Below are positions 3,068-13,879 of a stretch of DNA of 64,000 nt, piece after piece. Source of the DNA: Deltaproteobacteria bacterium (GTDB lineage: Bacteria > Myxococcota > XYA12-FULL-58-9). A program made the translations under genes and the position numbers. The notes under the pieces were generated by a model that was not told the origin of the DNA, did not search any database, and saw only the letters and a list, made by a program, of their open reading frames with translations. Each line of letters starts with the position of its first letter. Within the stretch, counting starts at the first letter, position 1. Location: contig JACRCV010000025.1 of the NCBI GenBank assembly GCA_016218825.1, positions 1-64,000 of the forward strand. The letters run 5' to 3'.

Positions 3068-3192
3068 GACGTCACCCCACCCAAGATAATCACGCCTCGA
3101 GGCATGCCAGGGCGGCGGGCCGCCACTGCTGATAATATTTGCTCGGTGGCAAAGGTACGCCGACAACAAGTATGCTTACAGGAGAGGATAGG

Positions 3193-6100
3193 ATGCGCAG
3201 GCCTTGGGAGATGCGATGGCTCGGGTTGGTCCTCGGGCTCGCCGCGAGTTGCCGGCCCGAGCTCACGGTGCCGATCGATGCGAACATCGTTTGCCGAGGC
3301 GAGCGCGACTGTCCCGAGGGATGGCTGTGCCGCGGCGAGCGCTGTGTCATCCCCGAGGACACGCCGCCGGCCGTGCTCCTCGAGCCGGCCGGGCGGATGC
3401 CGGTCTCGCCGGCAGTGTTGTCGCTGCGCCTCATCGAGGATGACCAGCAGCCGACCGACCTGTGGGTCGAGTACCTGGCGGGCGATTGGCTCCCCGCCAC
3501 GCTGTCGGCCGTGCGCGACGCCTCGGGTGTCGCGATCGGAACCGTCGTCGGCCAACGGGCGACCTCCCTGCCCGCGAGCGCGACCGGCGCGACCTACACG
3601 CTAGAATGGGATTTCGCCGCCGACGGCATCGTTGGCCCGACCGAGGTTCAACTCCGGGTGACGCCCGAAAACTCGCGGCAGGGCGACCCTCAGGCAACCG
3701 ACGTGTTCCTGGCCGGCAATGACCCGCCCACGGCCGCCTTCGACACGCCGGCAAACCAGGGCACGAGCGGCAACATCGTGTTGTCCTTCATGATTGCGGA
3801 CAGCAGCGCCGACTTGACGACGATTGAAGACGGCGCGCCGGGGGGCGCGTCGATCGAGCTCTCCAAGGACAACGGCAGCAGTTGGTCCGCCGCGACCATC
3901 ATCCTCGGTCAGCTCACGGACATCCCAACTTTGGCCGCGCCGGGTGTGCCGCACGGCGTGGTATGGCGGTCGGACGCCGACCTGCCGGGCGAGAGCGCGC
4001 TCGTGAGCGTGCGCGTCACGGCGCGCGACGCCGAGCTGGCCGCGCCGGCGGTCAGCGCTCCCTTTGCGGTCGAGAACAGTGACCGGCCGGTCTTGGTGTG
4101 GATCCGCACCCTGGACGACGACGGCGACGGCACCCTCGACTGGCTGGCCCTCGGCTTCAGCCGGCCGGTGTCTGACGGCTCGTACTCGTACGTGGCCGTT
4201 GATCCGAGCACCACCGACGTGACCCTCAGCCCCAGCGTGTCGCCGACCCCGCCGCGGTCGGTCACCGACGTCGCCGACGACTCGACGGTCTACCTGCAAG
4301 TGCTGTCGGATCACGGCACCGCGTTCACCGGCCGCTTCAACGCGGCCGGCGGTCTGTTCGCCAGCGTCGCCAGTGCGGCGCCGAGCGCGCCGGGCCGCAA
4401 CGTCGACATCGGCGACGGCGCGCCGCCGGCCGTGACCGGCAGCGTGACCGTCGACAGCGACGGCGACGGCCTCCTCGATGCGGTCGTCGTCAGCTTCTCC
4501 GAGCCGCTCGACGTCGGGAGCGTCGGGGCCGCGGGCTTCTCGATCGAGGGCGCCTTCATCGGCTCGGCGACCCTCCAGGGCTCGGCGGTTTCGGTGAACC
4601 TGGGGAGCCCCCTGCTCCTCACGAGCGGCGCGACGCCGCGGCTGCGCTACGATCACACGCTCGGCCAGCTCGCCGACCGGCCCGCCGCCGGCGGCGCCAA
4701 CCGCGTGCCCGCCTTCGAGAGCACCCCGAAAGACGGCGCCGGGCCGGTGATCATTCGAGCGGAGTACGACGCCGGCCTCTTGCCCGCGACCAGCGACGAC
4801 ACCCTCACGCTGACCCTCTCGGAGCCCGTGGACGACCGCAGCATCGTCGGCGCCGGTGCAGCGCTGCACCTCCTGCTCTCGACCGGTTCCTTCGGCGCCG
4901 CCGCGACGCTCGCGACCGCCGGCAGCGCCGACGACGCCGAGCTCCAGGTGGTCATGGGTGCCGGCGCGGTCGCGCCCGTGCTCGCCGGCGGCACGGTCGA
5001 GCTCCTGCCGGCGGGCTTGGTCGATGCCCACAATACCGCGGTGGGGCTCAATGTCCCGGCGGCGTTCGTCGACTCCGGACCCCCTAGGCTTTGGAGCATC
5101 GCCACGCGCGACCTCGATCAGGACGGCAAGGTCGATCACGTCGCCCTCACCTGGTCGCAGGGCATTCGCGATACCTCCTTCAACGCCAACGCCCTGACCC
5201 TGGGGGCGTTCGTGATCGCCCCGGGCGTGGCGGCGACTCCCGCGGGCGACGTGGTCGATGACAATGTCGTGTACGTGGCGCTGGTCGAGAGCGCCGCGGC
5301 CGACACGGGCGTCACCGGGACCGCCCATGGCAGCACGGGGCTCGTCCAGGCTCATGCCGACGGCGACAACAGCGAGGCCTTCGCCGGCGTCGCGGTCGTC
5401 GACGAGGCGCCGCCGATCCCGTTCTCGGCGTTGACCGCCGACCTCGATGTCGGCGGGTCAGGCGGCGGTCAAAACGGCAAGATCGAGCGCCTGGTGGTGT
5501 CGTTCTCGGAGAACGTGGGCGGCGCGACGTCGGTCGCGGCGTGGCGCGTCGACGGCGTGACTCCGCTCGACGCCGTGTTCTCGCCACCGCGGCAGGTGAC
5601 CCTGGTCTTCGCCGAAGCCGGGGCGCCGAGCACCGGCGCCCTGCCGGCGCTGAGCTACGTCGGCGCCGGGTGCCAGAGCCCCGGCGGGCCCGCGACCCCT
5701 CTGCACGACTTCGTGGACCTGTGTCCGCCGGCCTTGGCCTACGCCACGACCGACGGCGCCGCGCCTCGCATCGTGACCGCGACCCTGCGGGACACCGAGC
5801 CCGACGGCAACATCGACGCCGTCGATCTGGTGTTCTCCGAACCGGTGCGCGACACGACGTTCTTGCCCCCCGGCTTCTCGTTGGCCGGCGTCCCGACCGC
5901 GGGCTTCGTGACCCAGACCAGCATCGATGACGCGCAGGGGCGCGTGACCTCGGCGGCCGCAGCGCAGATTCCGGGGACGGCGGGCGCCGGCATCGAGCTC
6001 ACCTACGACGCGGCCGTGGGGCGCGTGGCCGACCTCGCCGGCATTCGCCTCGACGCGGTCGATGCGGCCGGCGTCGCCGAGGTGGACGGCGCCGGGCCCG

Positions 6101-8592
6101 TTCCCGTGGGCGTCGCCGTCTACCGCGACCTCGATCAGAACCGCGTCGACGCCGGAGACGTGATCGACGTCGCCTTCGGGGAGCCGCTCTTGCTCACGTC
6201 GCCCGCTGCCGCCGCCTTCGGCTTGAGCGGCCTTGCCGGGCTCAGCTTGGGCGCCGGGGCCGCGGTCGGCCCGGGGCCGCGGTCGAACGTCGTGCGCATC
6301 ACCCTGGGAACCGGCGCGGAATTGAAGCAGGTGCGCTTTGCGCCCGGCGCGGAAGGGACGCCCACGACCCTCAACCTCCAGAGCGTGAGCGCGGCGATCA
6401 CTGACGCGACCGGCACAGAGGCGGTGCCGTTGCCGCAGGGCCTGGACCTCACGGCGGGCCTCGTCGAGTCGGCGGTCTACGGCGCAGCGAACAGCGCGGG
6501 CGTGGCGCTCGCCGACCTCGGCAGGTTCACGGCGCCCGTTGCCAAGATCGACGGCATGCCGGAGATGATCCTCGCGACCGGTGTCGAGACCCAGATCTTC
6601 GCCAACGACGGCGCGGGCGGCTTCGGCGCCGCGCCCGCCCTGAGCCTCGCTTCGGGTGACAGCCGCGCGGCGGCGGCGGGCGACATCGACCTCGACGGTG
6701 ATCTCGACCTGCTGGTGGCGACGGCCAACGGCGTGGCGCGCTTCGTGAACAACGGCAACGCGACCTTTTCGGCACCGACCTTCCTCGGCGCCGCCGACGC
6801 CCGCAGCCTCGCCGTCGGCGACGTGAACCGCGACGGCAAGCTCGACATCGTGGTGGCCGTGGGCGGCGCCGGCAACGACCAGGTGTGGCTCAACGACGGC
6901 AGCGGGGGCTTTCCGGCCGTCACGACCTTGGCCGACGGCTCCGACGGGCGCGCCGTGGCCTTGGGCGACATCGATAAGGACGGCGACCTGGACGCCGTCG
7001 TCGCCGTGGGCGGCGCCGGTGACGACGAGATCTGGCGCAACGACGGCAGCGGGGGCTTCTCGGGCCCGACCTACCTCGCCGACCCCCTTGGGGCGACCGA
7101 CGGCCGGGCGCTCCTCCTCGCCGACCTGGACCGCGACGGCGACCTCGACATCGTGGTTGCGAACGGCGGCGCCGATCGCTCGAGCCTCTGGCGCAACGAT
7201 CACACCGGCAACTTCCCCGCGCCGCCGGAGCCGCTCGTCGGCGCCGACTGCCGCGGTGTCGCGGCGTTCGACGACGATCTCGACGGCGATCTCGATCTCG
7301 CGTTCGCCGTGGCCGGGGGCCCCATCCAGGTGTGGAACAACGAGGGGCGCTTCGTCGACCGGCAGGAGCGGGCGGGCAACGACGCGCGCGCCCTCGCCGC
7401 CTCTGACCTCGACCGCGACGGTGACGTGGACCTGGTGGCGGCGCAGGTTAACGGCGGGCGGGTGCTCAAGGGCTCGATGGCAAACGCGCTGGGGCCGTTG
7501 GTGCTCTCGAGCGGGCCCTTGTTCACCAACCCGCCCATGCTCACCGCCGGACGCTCCTATGCCGTCGGCGACGTCGACGGCGACGGCGACGCCGACCTCG
7601 TGGTGGCAACGGAGGGCGGGGGCGTCCGCAACGTCGTGCTGCTGTGGGACGGCACGACCTTCATCCCGGGTGGGGACGTGGGGCTTGCTGCCTCGTCAAG
7701 CGTGGCGCTCGCCGATCTTGACCGGGACGGCGATCTCGACGTCGCCATCGGCGATACGGGGGCGGGTGCTACCGCCGACCAGGTTTGGCTCAACCAGGGA
7801 GGCGCCCAGGGGGGCGTGCCGGGCATCTTCAGCGCGACCGCCGCCAACCTCGGCGCCAGCGTTACGTGGGCGTTCGCCGTGGGCGACGTGCAACACGACG
7901 GCGATCTCGATCTGCTCCTCGCCCACAACGGCGCGGTCGAGAAGGAGGAGATCTGGCTCAACGACGGCGCCGCTTCTTTCGGCGGCAGTTCGGGCTTCAC
8001 CTTGGGCACCACGACGACCACGCGAGGCGCGGCCTTCGCCGACATGGACGGGGACGGCGATCTGGACGTGGTGCTGGCCAACGATCTCGGCGTCGCGAGC
8101 GAGATCTGGCTGTTCGACGCCGTGGGCTTCGGCAGCGGCGGGGCGCCGAGCTTCACCTTCAGCTCGACCTCCTCGAAGTGTCTCACCATCGGTGATTGGG
8201 ATCGGGATGGCGCGCCGGACGTGTTCTTGGGCAAGAGCAGCGGCTTCGAGCTCTGGCGGAATCGGGGCGACGGCTCCGGGAACGTCGAAGGCGTGCCCTG
8301 GCAAACGGTGGGCGGCGAAGGGACGGCCTACGCCGCCGCTGCCGCCGATCTCGACTTGGACGGCGATCTGGACATCGTCGCCGCGGCTACCGGCCTGGGC
8401 GTGGACTGGGGGACGGTCTGGATCTACGACAGCCAGGCGACACCCAAGCTCTCGAAGGACGGTTCTTTCCCGCCCTTGAGCAATGGCAGCGCCGCCATGG
8501 CGACCATCGACATCGACCGCGACGGCGACCTCGATATCCTCATCGACGACGGTGTCGACGGGATCCGCCTGGTGCTCAACAGGACGCGTTGA
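3193..8592 (+). CDS. Giant FG-GAP/VCBS repeat surface lipoprotein
   Basis: The protein has 1799 residues from ATG 3193 (RBS ggagagga). A lipoprotein signal peptide ends in LAASC. Just after it is a Cys-rich segment of the C-x-x-x-x-DCPEGWLC-x-x-x-x-C type. Residues about 30-1110 form a series of Ig-like modules that restart with DxDGDGxxDxxxLxFSEPV-like phrases (around 4100, 4440, 5100, 5450, 5780 and 6100), so calcium-binding Asp loops introduce each module. Residues about 1155-1799 are a dozen FG-GAP/VCBS units (D-x-DxDGDLD-x-V-VA), the beta-propeller seen in integrin alpha subunits and bacterial adhesins or lectins. Likely an outer surface, Ca-dependent binding protein. It converges with the next gene with 8 bp between. 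Confidence 0.85.
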   Translation: MRRPWEMRWLGLVLGLAASCRPELTVPIDANIVCRGERDCPEGWLCRGERCVIPEDTPPAVLLEPAGRMPVSPAVLSLRLIEDDQQPTDLWVEYLAGDWLPATLSAVRDASGVAIGTVVGQRATSLPASATGATYTLEWDFAADGIVGPTEVQLRVTPENSRQGDPQATDVFLAGNDPPTAAFDTPANQGTSGNIVLSFMIADSSADLTTIEDGAPGGASIELSKDNGSSWSAATIILGQLTDIPTLAAPGVPHGVVWRSDADLPGESALVSVRVTARDAELAAPAVSAPFAVENSDRPVLVWIRTLDDDGDGTLDWLALGFSRPVSDGSYSYVAVDPSTTDVTLSPSVSPTPPRSVTDVADDSTVYLQVLSDHGTAFTGRFNAAGGLFASVASAAPSAPGRNVDIGDGAPPAVTGSVTVDSDGDGLLDAVVVSFSEPLDVGSVGAAGFSIEGAFIGSATLQGSAVSVNLGSPLLLTSGATPRLRYDHTLGQLADRPAAGGANRVPAFESTPKDGAGPVIIRAEYDAGLLPATSDDTLTLTLSEPVDDRSIVGAGAALHLLLSTGSFGAAATLATAGSADDAELQVVMGAGAVAPVLAGGTVELLPAGLVDAHNTAVGLNVPAAFVDSGPPRLWSIATRDLDQDGKVDHVALTWSQGIRDTSFNANALTLGAFVIAPGVAATPAGDVVDDNVVYVALVESAAADTGVTGTAHGSTGLVQAHADGDNSEAFAGVAVVDEAPPIPFSALTADLDVGGSGGGQNGKIERLVVSFSENVGGATSVAAWRVDGVTPLDAVFSPPRQVTLVFAEAGAPSTGALPALSYVGAGCQSPGGPATPLHDFVDLCPPALAYATTDGAAPRIVTATLRDTEPDGNIDAVDLVFSEPVRDTTFLPPGFSLAGVPTAGFVTQTSIDDAQGRVTSAAAAQIPGTAGAGIELTYDAAVGRVADLAGIRLDAVDAAGVAEVDGAGPVPVGVAVYRDLDQNRVDAGDVIDVAFGEPLLLTSPAAAAFGLSGLAGLSLGAGAAVGPGPRSNVVRITLGTGAELKQVRFAPGAEGTPTTLNLQSVSAAITDATGTEAVPLPQGLDLTAGLVESAVYGAANSAGVALADLGRFTAPVAKIDGMPEMILATGVETQIFANDGAGGFGAAPALSLASGDSRAAAAGDIDLDGDLDLLVATANGVARFVNNGNATFSAPTFLGAADARSLAVGDVNRDGKLDIVVAVGGAGNDQVWLNDGSGGFPAVTTLADGSDGRAVALGDIDKDGDLDAVVAVGGAGDDEIWRNDGSGGFSGPTYLADPLGATDGRALLLADLDRDGDLDIVVANGGADRSSLWRNDHTGNFPAPPEPLVGADCRGVAAFDDDLDGDLDLAFAVAGGPIQVWNNEGRFVDRQERAGNDARALAASDLDRDGDVDLVAAQVNGGRVLKGSMANALGPLVLSSGPLFTNPPMLTAGRSYAVGDVDGDGDADLVVATEGGGVRNVVLLWDGTTFIPGGDVGLAASSSVALADLDRDGDLDVAIGDTGAGATADQVWLNQGGAQGGVPGIFSATAANLGASVTWAFAVGDVQHDGDLDLLLAHNGAVEKEEIWLNDGAASFGGSSGFTLGTTTTTRGAAFADMDGDGDLDVVLANDLGVASEIWLFDAVGFGSGGAPSFTFSSTSSKCLTIGDWDRDGAPDVFLGKSSGFELWRNRGDGSGNVEGVPWQTVGGEGTAYAAAAADLDLDGDLDIVAAATGLGVDWGTVWIYDSQATPKLSKDGSFPPLSNGSAAMATIDIDRDGDLDILIDDGVDGIRLVLNRTR

Positions 8593-9302: not shown

Positions 9303-10076
9303 CTAAAACGCCGCCAATCGAACGATGTTCTCGGAGAGCGGCGGCGGGTTCGGCGGCTGGTTGGACTCGAAGAGGACGACGGTCGCCTTGGTGAAGGCGC
9401 GCCGATAGACGTTGGCGTTGGCGTTGTCGGAGTCGAACGCCGCGATGACCGAGCCGTAGTGGCGCAGGTAGTTGGTCATGTTCTGCTTGAAGACCGCGTC
9501 CTGCATCTCGGCGGTCGGCTTCATGATGAGCTCGGTGCCCTGGATGCCGATCGGGAAGCCGTTGTCGCGCAGCGCCTTCACGGTGCCCAAGAGCTGCCGG
9601 CGCTGGTCGCGGCCGGTCACGTAGACGATGCGGGCGCCGTTGGAGTACAGGGTGCGGACGTACTCGACCGCGCCGCGGATGGGTTGGTCGTACTTCAAGT
9701 AGTCGTCGGAGAAGAAGCGCTCGGCCCAGAACGCCGCGGCGTTGTTGACCACCGCCGGATCGACGACGCCCACCGCGGCGAGGGTGTCGGGCAGGCGGTA
9801 TTTCACGAGCGGCACCGTCAGGGTCTGCAGCTGCGCGGCGGCGCCCGGGGTCACGTAGCTCTTGTCGGCGGCGAACTCCTTCAAGATCTGGAGAATGCGC
9901 GGCCGGTTGTCGAGGAGCGTGCCCTCGAGGTCGAACACCACGATCGGCCGCTCCTGCTTGTTGTACGCCGCGGTCACGTCCGCGAGCACCTGCTGCATCA
10001 CCGTCCCGGCCTGCGCCATCGCCGACACCGGCACGAGCAGACACACCACCAGAGCCAAGAGCTTGCGGCAAATCAT
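9303..10076 (-). CDS. Secreted HAD-superfamily protein (acid-phosphatase-like)
   Basis: The protein has 257 residues from ATG 10076 with GGAGGT seven bases upstream; a GTG directly before (10079) is less likely. A Sec signal peptide, MICRKLLALVVCLLVPVSAMA, is followed by VVFDLEGTLLDNRP, the HAD motif I, with YVTGRD as motif II (about residue 145). The second motif I aspartate, the general acid in phosphatases, is glutamate here (D-x-E). The protein should act in the periplasm or outside. HAD secreted phosphatases clear phosphomonoesters, but with this substitution activity is uncertain. Confidence 0.7.
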   Translation of the reverse strand: MICRKLLALVVCLLVPVSAMAQAGTVMQQVLADVTAAYNKQERPIVVFDLEGTLLDNRPRILQILKEFAADKSYVTPGAAAQLQTLTVPLVKYRLPDTLAAVGVVDPAVVNNAAAFWAERFFSDDYLKYDQPIRGAVEYVRTLYSNGARIVYVTGRDQRRQLLGTVKALRDNGFPIGIQGTELIMKPTAEMQDAVFKQNMTNYLRHYGSVIAAFDSDNANANVYRRAFTKATVVLFESNQPPNPPPLSENIVRLAAF

Positions 10077-10115
10077 CACGACACCTCCATTGCTCTAAAC
10101 GCGCCGAACCTGTGG

Positions 10116-10167
10116 CACGCTACACTTGCACGCTACACTTGCACGCTGCACTTGCACGCTGCACTTC
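10116..10167. repeat. Tandem repeat, 13 bp x 4
   Basis: There are four head-to-tail copies of cacgctacacttg: 10116-10128 and 10129-10141 identical, 10142-10154 and 10155-10167 with a to g at position 7, the last ending in c. The unit is not a multiple of 3 and lies upstream of the HAD gene's start on its 5' side, outside any gene. Confidence 0.9.
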
Positions 10168-10170
10168 TTT

Positions 10171-10247
10171 TGATTCCCGCGCCGCGGCTGCCGCGGCGCT
10201 CCCCACCCCCACTCCCCCAACCCCTCGCCCCCGGGTGGGGCGAGGGG
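10171..10247. repeat. REP-like double-hairpin element, copy 1
   Basis: TGATTCCCGCG starts the element. Hairpin 1 pairs GCGCCGCGG (10179-10187) with CCGCGGCGC (10191-10199) around CTG. A linker TCCCCACCCCCACT follows. Hairpin 2 pairs CCCCTCGCCCC (10221-10231) with GGGGCGAGGGG (10237-10247) around the loop CGGGT. The same architecture recurs at 42580-42676 with different but still paired stems. Confidence 0.75.
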
Positions 10248-10322
10248 CGTCGATCTACCCAAGTGCGCCATAGCGCAAGACCGACTGGAATGAAACGGGC
10301 TCACGCAACACCCACCCGGGCC

Positions 10323-10464
10323 GGCAACCGCGGCGGCTTTCGCGGGCGTCGATGGGCAGCGCTCGGCTCTTCGTGCGCTCACGTCGGCAACCGCGGCGGC
10401 TGTCGCGGGCGTCGATGGGCAGCGCTCGGCTCTTCGTGCGCTCACGTCGGCAACCGCGGCGGCT
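10323..10464. repeat. Tandem repeat, 63 bp x 2.25
   Basis: Units are at 10323-10385 and 10386-10448, identical except one base (ggctttcg versus ggctgtcg), with a 16-bp third start at 10449-10464. Each begins ggcaaccgcggcggct. The 63-bp period keeps all frames open, which explains the spurious open frames on both strands here. The near identity suggests recent duplication. Confidence 0.9.
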
Positions 10465-10631
10465 CGGCGGGCGCGTCTCGTCGCGCCACCGCCGCGAGCT
10501 CTCTGGGCCGAGGTTTGCCGCTCGAGCCGCGACTGCCCACCGCACGACACTTCGTATGCCGACTCGCGGCGGACGCGCTCCTCGACGCATCCCGCCTGCG
10601 CCTTGATCCGCGGTTGCCGCGCACAGTGAGC

Positions 10632-10781
10632 AGGCCGCGTGAGCCTACTCCGTCAGGTGTTGCGCGAGGCGGACCGAAAGGTGAGCCCCGCGTGAGCGGG
10701 GCGAAGACGCGGCGCACCAGCGCCGCGGCCGAGGCCGAAGGCCGAGCCTGTAGGGAGGCCGACCCCCGCGCATCGCGGGGG
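10632..10781 (+). ncRNA. Candidate structured RNA: array of six hairpins, two with GNRA loops
   Basis: Stems visible directly: AGGC/GCCT (10632-10646); ACC-GAAA-GGT (10673-10682); GCCCCGC-GTGA-GCGGGGC (10685-10702); CGCGGCGC-ACCA-GCGCCGCG (10708-10727); GGCC-GAA-GGCC (10733-10743); CCCCCGCG-CAT-CGCGGGGG (10763-10781). Two loops are GNRA tetraloops when read on the plus strand, which favours plus-strand RNA. I do not recognise a known RNA family. GC-rich DNA forms hairpins easily, so this stays tentative; a dispersed genomic repeat is the main alternative. Confidence 0.35.
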
Positions 10782-10827
10782 GCGCGCCCAGAAGATCGAC
10801 AACAAACAGCAACAAGGACTCCATTCG

Positions 10828-10856
10828 TTGACAAACAAGGCCGATCTCCACTACGA
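10828..10856 (+). promoter_or_regulatory. Possible promoter upstream of the beta-propeller gene
   Basis: TTGACA (10828-10833) is followed 17-18 bp later by ctacga/tacgaa, a weak -10. It lies in the AT-rich stretch and is directly followed by the palindrome acattaatgt (10857-10866), an operator candidate. A second -10-like TATAAC is at 10878-10883. Confidence 0.35.
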
Positions 10857-10939
10857 ACATTAATGTTTACAGTTACTTATAACCAGTATCGCATGGCACA
10901 TGCCTTGCTCAATCAGAGGCGCGTCGGGAGAGCCGGCGG

Positions 10940-13879
10940 ATGGAGCGCGTCATGCTGAAAGACCGAGAGCTCAAAGAGGCGTTGGGGATGTTCGTAGCGA
11001 CGAGCATGGTGGGGGTGGTGGTCGCGGCGTTCTTGATGGCGACGACGGGGTGCGGGCGCGAGACGACGCAGCCCGCGCGGGCGCCGGGGCGGCCGGTGGT
11101 GGGCGACACCGCCTTCGTGAGCGCCGCGCCGGGCGGCAACGACTTGGCGAACGCCGGCGGTGAGTGCGCCGGCGGCCTCTGTGGGACGCCGGACGCGAGC
11201 GACGGTCGCGACACCGGCGCGGCGCGAGAGATCGAGGAGGCCGACGTCATCCGGGTGGTGGGCGACCGGTTGTTCCTGTTGAACGCCTACCGCGGCCTGG
11301 AGATCATCGACATCAGCGACCCCGACCAGCCGTCGATCTTGGGGAACGTCAAGATCTTCGGCTACCCGGTCGAGATGTACGTCGACGGCGGTCGCGCCTA
11401 CATCATCGTCAGCAACTACTTCACCTACTGGCGCGGCCTCGGCGGCATGGAGGACAGCGCCGTCGAAGAGTGGCGCGGCTCGCAGGTGGTGGTCGCGAAC
11501 ATCGAGAACCCGGCGTTGCCGTCGGTCGTCACCGCGGTGAACATCGACGGCTACATCTCCGACACCCGCAGGGTCGGCGACATCCTCTACGTGGTCTCGA
11601 ACCGGTCGTCGTGGTGGAGCTGCACCGCGAGCGACGACGACGTCGATCTCACCTTCGTCGCCTCCATCGACATCTACGACCCGGCCAACATCCACGAGGT
11701 CGAGCGGCTGAGCTTCCCCGGCAGCTCCAACTTCATCCACGTGACCGAGAACGCGATCTTCGTGGCGCAGTACTTCTGGAGCTGGAGCGAGCCGCAGGCG
11801 ACCACGAGCTACGGCTCCACCGTCACCTACGTCGACATCAGCGACGCCTATGGCCACGTGGCGCCGCGCGGCAAGCTCGCGGTCCCCGGCTACCTGCGCG
11901 ACCGCTACAGCATGGACTGGTTCGCCGACTCCTTCCGCATCGTCACCTACTTCTGGGAAGGCACCGGCCACTCGGAGCTCCGCACCTTCGACACCGCGAA
12001 CCCCGACGCGATGCGCGCCCAGGGCACGCTGGTAATCGCCGACGCCGGCCAGCTGATGGCCACCCGCTTCGCCGGCCTGCGCGCCTACACCATTCACCTG
12101 CCGCGGCAGTCGGTCGACCCGCTCGACGTCATCGATCTCGCCGACCCCTACAACCCGAAGTTGCAGGCGGTGCTCGACATCCCCGGCTGGGTCAACCACA
12201 TCGAGGTGCGCGGCATGCGCCTCGTGGCTCTCGGGGTCGACGACACCGACTGGCAGAACCAGCAGGTGTCGGTGAAGCTCTTCGACGTCACCGACGCCCG
12301 GGCGCCGATCCTCCTCGACGAGGCGCCGGTGGGGGTCGGCCACAGCTGGTCCACCGCCAACTGGGACCCGAAGGCGCTGACCATCGTCGACGAGCTCGGC
12401 CTGGTGCTGGTGCCGTACAGCTCCTGGGATCAGGCGGCGAGCAGTTATGACCAGGGCGTCGCGATCGTCACCTGGAGCGGCGACCGCCTGACGACCCGCA
12501 GCATCGCCGCCACCAAGGGCAGCGTCAACCGCACCCGCGCGACGCCGACCCGCCTGTTCGCCACCTCCACCGACTTCCTCGAGGTCTTTAACACCGAGGA
12601 CCTCGACCAGCCGCTCTCGACCGCGACCTTGGCGCTCGCGTGGAACGTCGCGGACTTCGTCGTCGTCGGCGACTACGGCGTGCAGCTGGTGGGCGACTAC
12701 TGGCGCTACTGGGGCGACACCCCGGTGCGCGAGCTCAGGGTCGTGCCGCTCGCCGAGCCCGACGCCGGGCCGGTCTTGGCGCGGATCTCGCTCGACGCCC
12801 CCTACGGCCGCCTGTTCCAGAACGGTGCCCTGGTGACCGTGGTGTCCTATGACTACGCCGCCGCGGCGACGACGGTCGCGGTGTTCGACTTCGCCGACCC
12901 GCTGCACCCGATCGCCCGCGGCACCGCCAGCGTCCCGATGCCCGGCGGCTTCGACTATTATGGTGGGCTCTACAACCGCTGGGGCTGGTACTACGGCGGC
13001 GGCGAGATCATCGCGCTCGGCGACAAGCTCGCGATCCACCCGTCGGGCTACTACTACCCGATGCTCGGCGACGCGGCGCCGGGGACCGCGGGCGCGAGCG
13101 GGCCGGAGGTCGATCAGCTCTTCATCGTCGACCTCGCGAACCCGGACGCCCTGACCAGCACCCGCGTGCCGCTCGAGCAGTTCGCGACCCAGCTCTCCGG
13201 CCGCGGCGACACCCTGTACTACACCTACTGGGAGCCGGTGCAGGTCGCGGAGTCGCCCTACCCCTTTGCCGCCTACTACCTCGGTCGAGTGCGCCTCGAC
13301 GGCGGCGTCACGGTGCTGCCGGGGGTGAACATCCCGGGCTACTTCGTGGACGCGGCCGAGAGCGGCCTGGTGATCTACACCGTCGATTTGTCCTGGACCG
13401 ACGCCGGCGCGCTGTCGCAGAGCTTCAACGCCCTCGCGCTGCGACCGGCCGAGGCCGAGCTCGTCGGCCGCCTGGACCTCGCGCCCGAGGCCGGCCACTT
13501 GAACGGCGTCACGGTGAAGAGCGGCGTCGCCTACCTGACCCGGCAAACCTGGAGCAACGCCTGCGACGTGCCGCCGCGGATGACGCTCTCCCTGGTGAAC
13601 GCCGCGGCCGCCTCGACCTTGCCGACCTTGGGAGAGCTCACCGCCGACGGCTACGGCTTCATGATGGCGGTCGACTCCGGCCGGGCGTTCTTCAACATGG
13701 GTTGGGGCGAGGGGATGATGGTGGTGGACACCCGCCAGCCGGCGACCCCGCGGCTCTTGAGCACCTTCCGCACCCAGGGCTACCCGGTGGCGGTCCGTGT
13801 CGCCGCGGACACGGCATACCTGCCGTCCGGCTACTACGGGGTCCAAGCGTTCCGGCTCGACGACGGCTTGCCGTTGTAA
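10940..13879 (+). CDS. Secreted beta-propeller domain lipoprotein
   Basis: The protein has 979 residues from ATG 10940; ATG 10952 (MLKDREL) with GGAG upstream is an equal candidate. A membrane segment, MFVATSMVGVVVAAFLMATTGC, ends in a lipobox-like TTGC. After a short linker, EEADVIRVVGDRLFLLNAYRGLEIIDISDPDQP begins the Beta_propel (PF09826-type) fold of proteins that alternate ID-ISDP/FD-TANP/VD-LADP blades. Many further blades follow (for example LIVDLANPDA and VVDTRQPATP) to the end, so two propellers may be present. The likely place is the outer envelope; ligand and activity are unknown. It is followed 77 bp later by the HExxH protein in the same direction. Confidence 0.8.
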   Translation: MERVMLKDRELKEALGMFVATSMVGVVVAAFLMATTGCGRETTQPARAPGRPVVGDTAFVSAAPGGNDLANAGGECAGGLCGTPDASDGRDTGAAREIEEADVIRVVGDRLFLLNAYRGLEIIDISDPDQPSILGNVKIFGYPVEMYVDGGRAYIIVSNYFTYWRGLGGMEDSAVEEWRGSQVVVANIENPALPSVVTAVNIDGYISDTRRVGDILYVVSNRSSWWSCTASDDDVDLTFVASIDIYDPANIHEVERLSFPGSSNFIHVTENAIFVAQYFWSWSEPQATTSYGSTVTYVDISDAYGHVAPRGKLAVPGYLRDRYSMDWFADSFRIVTYFWEGTGHSELRTFDTANPDAMRAQGTLVIADAGQLMATRFAGLRAYTIHLPRQSVDPLDVIDLADPYNPKLQAVLDIPGWVNHIEVRGMRLVALGVDDTDWQNQQVSVKLFDVTDARAPILLDEAPVGVGHSWSTANWDPKALTIVDELGLVLVPYSSWDQAASSYDQGVAIVTWSGDRLTTRSIAATKGSVNRTRATPTRLFATSTDFLEVFNTEDLDQPLSTATLALAWNVADFVVVGDYGVQLVGDYWRYWGDTPVRELRVVPLAEPDAGPVLARISLDAPYGRLFQNGALVTVVSYDYAAAATTVAVFDFADPLHPIARGTASVPMPGGFDYYGGLYNRWGWYYGGGEIIALGDKLAIHPSGYYYPMLGDAAPGTAGASGPEVDQLFIVDLANPDALTSTRVPLEQFATQLSGRGDTLYYTYWEPVQVAESPYPFAAYYLGRVRLDGGVTVLPGVNIPGYFVDAAESGLVIYTVDLSWTDAGALSQSFNALALRPAEAELVGRLDLAPEAGHLNGVTVKSGVAYLTRQTWSNACDVPPRMTLSLVNAAAASTLPTLGELTADGYGFMMAVDSGRAFFNMGWGEGMMVVDTRQPATPRLLSTFRTQGYPVAVRVAADTAYLPSGYYGVQAFRLDDGLPL

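Follow-up and report, generated by a model that had tools for sequence, protein, structure and literature searches.

A composite intergenic block in a Myxococcota genome carries an apparently undescribed family of folded repeats

The block at positions 10077-10939 of the window (the 64,000-nucleotide stretch of DNA analysed here, from a Myxococcota host genome of 6.54 Mb in 121 contigs) separates two divergent genes, encoding a HAD/acid phosphatase protein on the minus strand and a beta-propeller protein on the plus strand, and raises the question as to whether its ~860 bp of stacked repeats constitute one mobile or regulatory locus or a composite of several insertions, both of which were offered in the initial annotation. 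The block had also been described as non-coding, and we concur: the codon-usage caller finds no gene between the two flanking genes, and a coding region is ruled out as there is no open reading frame with codon bias. No part of the window matches an Rfam 15 family at the gathering threshold. The features are listed in Table 1. A very long open reading frame (1817 aa, window positions 3139-8592), two genes away from the block on its left side, has repeated DxDxDGxxD-type motifs that look FG-GAP/VCBS-like by eye.

Table 1. Features of the intergenic block and its flanking genes, in window coordinates.
Feature	Position	Strand	Basis and remarks
Left gene, HAD-superfamily / acid phosphatase B-like	9303..10079	-	PF03767, E 9.8e-10; codon-usage call; GTG start at 10079 or ATG at 10076
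13-bp unit GCACGCTRCACTT, four copies	10115..10166	+	Read as a probable local tandem expansion of the element A leader
Element A, REP-like dispersed repeat with two GC-rich hairpins	~10167..10268	+	Genome matches, aligned copies
63-bp unit, two copies with one mismatch	10322..10447	+	First 17 bp are the first 17 bp of element C
Element C, 172-bp palindromic, with perfect 12-bp terminal inverted repeats CGGCAACCGCGG / CCGCGGTTGCCG	10448..10619	+	Sequence comparison, fold
Spacer between C and D	10620..10655	+	Partly common to the C66, C103 and window copies, where C (or its right end) joins D
Element D, multibranched structured repeat	10656..10798	+	Closing helix 10662-10666 with 10788-10792, hairpins within
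AT-richer leader of right gene, holding the palindrome ACATTAATGT	10799..10939	+	Sequence reading, GC profile
Right gene, beta-propeller domain protein	10940..13879	+	PF09826, E 1.6e-55

The block is a composite in which three unrelated families of dispersed repeats (A, C and D) are combined with two probable local tandem duplications, and not a single element. A genome search with the block finds no second place that matches its full length, and searches with the block and with its parts show that A, C and D each have their own separate distribution; because they recur apart at unrelated sites, this is not a single, cleanly bordered element. It is hardly credible that the entire 860 bp form one mobile or regulatory element, for although the parts adjoin and C and D are also joined on contigs C66 and C30, there is no second copy of the full block and A, C and D recur apart. 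A regulatory role for the locus as a whole is likewise unsupported, and it is the alternative suggestion of several insertions that the genome search bears out under a preset test, with A, C and D separate at unrelated sites and C and D also joined at several. The four repeat types originally listed are all present, but they are not independent types, as the 13-bp unit resembles the leader of A and the 63-bp unit opens with 17 bp of C.

Both tandem arrays are found as first described. The four 13-bp units (97% match) resemble the leader that precedes A elsewhere, as with GAGCGCTCTGCACCTGC ahead of TTTGATTCCCGCG, and the array is most simply viewed as a local duplication that expanded a short A leader. 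The 63-bp repeat comprises two copies with a single mismatch followed by the 17-bp beginning of a third, and its 46-bp interior has no match outside the block in the sequence examined. The near identity of these units had been taken to indicate recent activity, and a recent origin is retained here, most simply as local tandem duplication at the edge of C.

At the right end of the block the AT-rich character noted earlier is evident, with the GC profile falling to 0.42 at 10800-10899 and the palindrome lying inside this stretch, but the promoter-like site is not substantiated, as no sigma-70-like promoter (and no intrinsic terminator) passes a consensus scan of 10050-10960. The leader matches none of the other loci examined, and the orthologue of the right flanking gene in the congener G001 runs off its contig.

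Element A, correctly recognized at first reading as a REP-like GC-rich double hairpin, has at least 46 matches in the host genome (40 of 361 candidates were scored), and A-like sequence is present in the congener too. In all but two of the 28 loci scored among the copies L044-L073 it begins 5-44 bp past the stop codon of a same-strand gene, the window copy being one of the exceptions, and such a preference for one strand points to a possible function at mRNA 3′ ends. Aligned copies show compensatory-looking changes in the first hairpin. No intrinsic terminator, in the sense of a GC stem with a T run after it, is found for A or D in 10050-10960, and we regard A as a candidate mRNA 3′-end or terminator-like repeat that lacks the T run.

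Element C occurs as four copies of 172-173 bp (in the window and on contigs C66, C30 and C28), all with perfect 12-bp terminal inverted repeats, and is predicted to fold as one long hairpin; fragments are present on contigs C25 and C103, and copies are few overall. The arrangement of C relative to D is variable, with the two joined in the window and at C66 and C30, D preceded by no more than the right end of C at C25 and C103, C without D at C28, and D without C at seven sites. The terminal inverted repeats and the single long hairpin are MITE-like traits, and the elements described here resemble ERIC and MITE-like sequences (PMC2229807, PMC10969869) in being short, non-coding and dispersed. 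Unlike MITEs, however, no target-site duplication is visible by eye beside the terminal inverted repeats of the four C copies, no parent transposon was found in a search for Y1 transposases, and in D terminal inverted sequence is limited to the 5-bp closing helix. One locus in the host genome (L104, G000:C103:58850-61000) contains several partial copies of C, a copy of D and, by eye, an apparent toxin-antitoxin pair, as if it were an insertion hot spot.

Element D had been described as an array of six hairpins. The hairpin-rich segment is real, and the window copy folds better than all 200 of its shuffles (z -3.45), but there are four hairpins, not six, and three of these lie inside nested long-range helices; what was overlooked is that the array is a conserved folded family represented in several genomes. 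The host genome contains exactly 12 clean copies, below which matches fall to background, together with an interrupted piece at the contig end of C35. These copies, which are 79-98% identical, yield a consensus fold of 42 pairs in which the 5-bp helix 1 closes the element and helices 2, 3 and 4 are nested within, separated by the internal loops GGA/GAG and GNA/GNA; helix 4 surrounds three hairpins, and the fourth is situated between helices 2 and 1. Standard pairs occupy 99.2% of the 504 cells in the 12 copies, compared to 90.2% in shuffled and 37-51% in slid alignments, and double changes occur in 11 pairs, giving 44 double-changed cells versus 15.8 in shuffles, although the shuffles in both comparisons ignore kinship among the copies. 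Within the host genome 26 of the 30 internal-loop and junction columns are invariant, while the hairpin loops and flanks vary; the GNA/GNA loop has its middle positions among the few loop columns that change. When the window copy is folded by itself, the long-range helices of its minimum-energy structure differ from the consensus, and the consensus long-range helices thus rest on covariation and not on energy.

D is also present in other genomes. The congener contains a single diverged copy (C268:7175-7377), which agrees in coordinates and score with L134 on contig JAKLEG010000034 of Myxococcota bacterium RA.bin128 and so gives the phylum as Myxococcota, and motif or model searches place 17, 3 and at least two copies in three further genomes. 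Scanning GTDB species genomes with a one-strand pattern gave at least nine places, three of which were confirmed by the model and the partner strand: the congener copy, one in MAG LJ-7-9m_bin-1278 (G195), and one in a MAG labelled Klebsiella pneumoniae. Model searches of the genomes holding these three places gave additional copies, and searching with the 3′-strand motif gave 17 places in G195 and 3 in G306, with reversed-pattern controls giving none in the host genome, G195 or G306. All 28 full copies, from five genomes, have a 5′ partner strand that forms 7-8 of the 8 core pairs; the corresponding figure for the 19 chance matches to the 3′ motif elsewhere never exceeds 5. Single 3′-motif matches in the remaining genomes of the phylum, and in G260, G285 and others, are set aside as chance matches to one strand, and one model hit (L140) was judged false by eye. 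Among 195 genomes of the phylum, D is found only in the host genome and the congener, and we provisionally describe its occurrence as patchy, the broad searches having been strict and capped. G195 probably belongs to another GTDB phylum, as the 284 genomes sampled around it had not been met among these 195. The contigs of the MAG labelled Klebsiella pneumoniae (CAMCWU01; L129, L138) have 69% GC and predicted proteins unlike those of Klebsiella, and the label is almost certainly wrong. A viral origin for D was considered and rejected, as two pattern scans found nothing and a third gave 20 matches to a short 5′ motif, none of them supported by the model; matches in plasmids and phages are short hairpin pieces only, and an origin there was rejected as well.

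One multibranched fold is common to the 28 copies from five genomes, with the cross-genome core intact in every one. Double changes across the five genomes are seen in helices 1-4 and in hairpin 3: helix 2 changes in step between GGC/GCC and GCC/GGC, helix 3 between CC/GG and CT/AG, and helix 4 between GGG/CCC and GCG/CGC, with hairpin 3 behaving likewise. Because the helix 2 and helix 3 switches each appear in more than one genome, they do not reflect a single inherited event. The innermost pair of helix 4 is unsupported (21 of 28), and the helix 1 partner, taken as the best complement within a window, was misplaced by the parser in a few copies. Parts of the loops are specified by the parsing motifs, and the invariance of loops across genomes is thus partly imposed by the search; the 12 host-genome copies came from a different core pattern. 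As judged from the aligned sequences, the D fold is kept by compensatory changes across genomes. It is true that the genome is GC-rich, that chance hairpins are common at such composition, and that copies within a genome are related, but it is very improbable that high GC and similarity among the repeats produced the fold artefactually, since neither shuffle nor slide controls reproduce the pairing, reversed-pattern controls gave no matches, and the same architecture recurs in other genomes. In G195 (L171-L189) hairpin 1 has a loop of ~30 nt, in which copies diverge far more than they do elsewhere in the element; the notion that this loop is a guide-like sequence was discarded, as the loops look degenerate but related by eye.

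What then is D? No description of the family was found in a literature search that left many journals outside its coverage, and it is apparently undescribed. REP and REPIN sequences with their RAYTs (PMC3116915, PMC3733652, PMC8266576) resemble A and D in forming within-genome families of intergenic hairpin repeats, and many dispersed intergenic hairpin copies, the hallmark of the REP type, are indeed found for both A (at least 46 matches) and D (12 copies). A may nonetheless depart from REP, in that no consistent GTAG/CGTC tag is seen by eye at the palindrome foot in 30 aligned copies, and D departs from REP and REPIN in being 145-200 nt long, branched, and present in 1-17 copies. Y1 transposase genes occur in four of the five genomes that host D (none was found in G196), yet neither A nor D adjoins them: the Y1 genes examined in these genomes are not flanked by D, and the 1.5-kb flanks of the three Y1 genes in the host genome contain no A, C or D motif. 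BOX elements of Streptococcus pneumoniae (PMC3049150) are similar to D in size, and are likewise dispersed intergenic repeats that need no open reading frame. They are modular, with modules joined or apart and with tandem inner units, and here too C with D, C alone and D alone all occur; they are predicted to fold if transcribed and are regarded as parasitic and non-autonomous (PMC3049150). D differs from BOX, however, in its GC-richness, in its branched core with symmetric purine loops, in its other host lineages, and in that no BOX-like IS partner was found; we see no sequence relation between the two, which are likened and set apart here by description. Covarying helices and conserved loops are features that D shares with the structured RNAs of Rfam 15, but D is dispersed and multi-copy, and its loci match no Rfam family at the gathering threshold and give only chance hits at relaxed E-values.

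The explanation that we favour, and consider somewhat better than even, is that the block is an intergenic landing zone for A, C and D with local tandem expansion at the edges of A and C, and that D is a new family of non-autonomous structured repeats of ~145-200 nt. The copy number, scatter, likeness within genomes, lack of an open reading frame, lack of strand bias (13 of 28 copies are co-oriented and 15 convergent with the downstream gene) and patchiness of D all fit a non-autonomous repeat spreading in trans, and the constant purine loops suggest that the fold itself is recognized. D would then probably be copied and spread by an enzyme encoded elsewhere, for which its folded single strand, either RNA or single-stranded DNA, may be the substrate; the fold would be needed for both copying and spreading, and D would behave as a REPIN- or BOX-like sequence population. 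Counting against a mobile repeat, no mobilizer was found for D, and by eye no target-site duplication was seen in the aligned copies. Near-fixed loops and few broken pairs per copy could equally fit selection on each D for a host function.

The main alternative, to which we give roughly one chance in four, is that D is a structured non-coding RNA, either a trans-acting sRNA or the RNA of a ribonucleoprotein, present in several copies that are each functional and selected by the host. The covarying helices fit such an RNA, as do the invariant G/A loops on one strand, which as RNA could form sheared G.A pairs, and so does the single copy in the congener; the variation in copy number from 1 to 17 by genome and the patchy occurrence do not, and the window copy shows no promoter or terminator pattern and D has no Rfam relative. 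Improbable, though not to the degree of an artefactual fold, is a cis-acting role for D, as a riboswitch-like leader or an mRNA 3′-end element of its neighbours. Eight of the 12 host-genome copies are followed, 59-172 bp downstream, by a co-oriented gene, and six of the ten full copies in G195 end within ~15 nt of a convergent stop codon, placements that would suit such a role, but the 15 convergent copies weaken the case, and the genes beside the copies are unrelated to one another. It is also possible, though less likely than not, that D represents a new class of structured RNA that Rfam lacks and that several bacterial lineages share. Its branched core would be defined by two purine internal loops, both symmetric, and the dispersed element carrying it would rely on the folded RNA either for its spread or for a function in the host.

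Most of the small folded repeats described from intergenic DNA come from enterobacteria, pseudomonads, neisseriae and streptococci. D is a family in Myxococcota-like bacteria whose core is conserved to an RNA-grade degree, with matched mutations and G/A internal loops that hardly vary, and it offers a clear handle on whether repeats of this type are propagated as folded RNA or single-stranded DNA, or are instead kept for function. Its motif is directly searchable, and the example illustrates that GC-rich hairpin arrays in MAGs can conceal RNA-like families absent from Rfam.

Two D copies in the host genome have an unusual structure. At G000:C120:68060-68260 and G000:C54:83270-83500 an intact D lies between two stray pieces, the first resembling a D 5′ end and the second being a D 3′ end (GGCACGCCCAGAAGATC), as would be seen if one D had inserted into another or displaced its interior.
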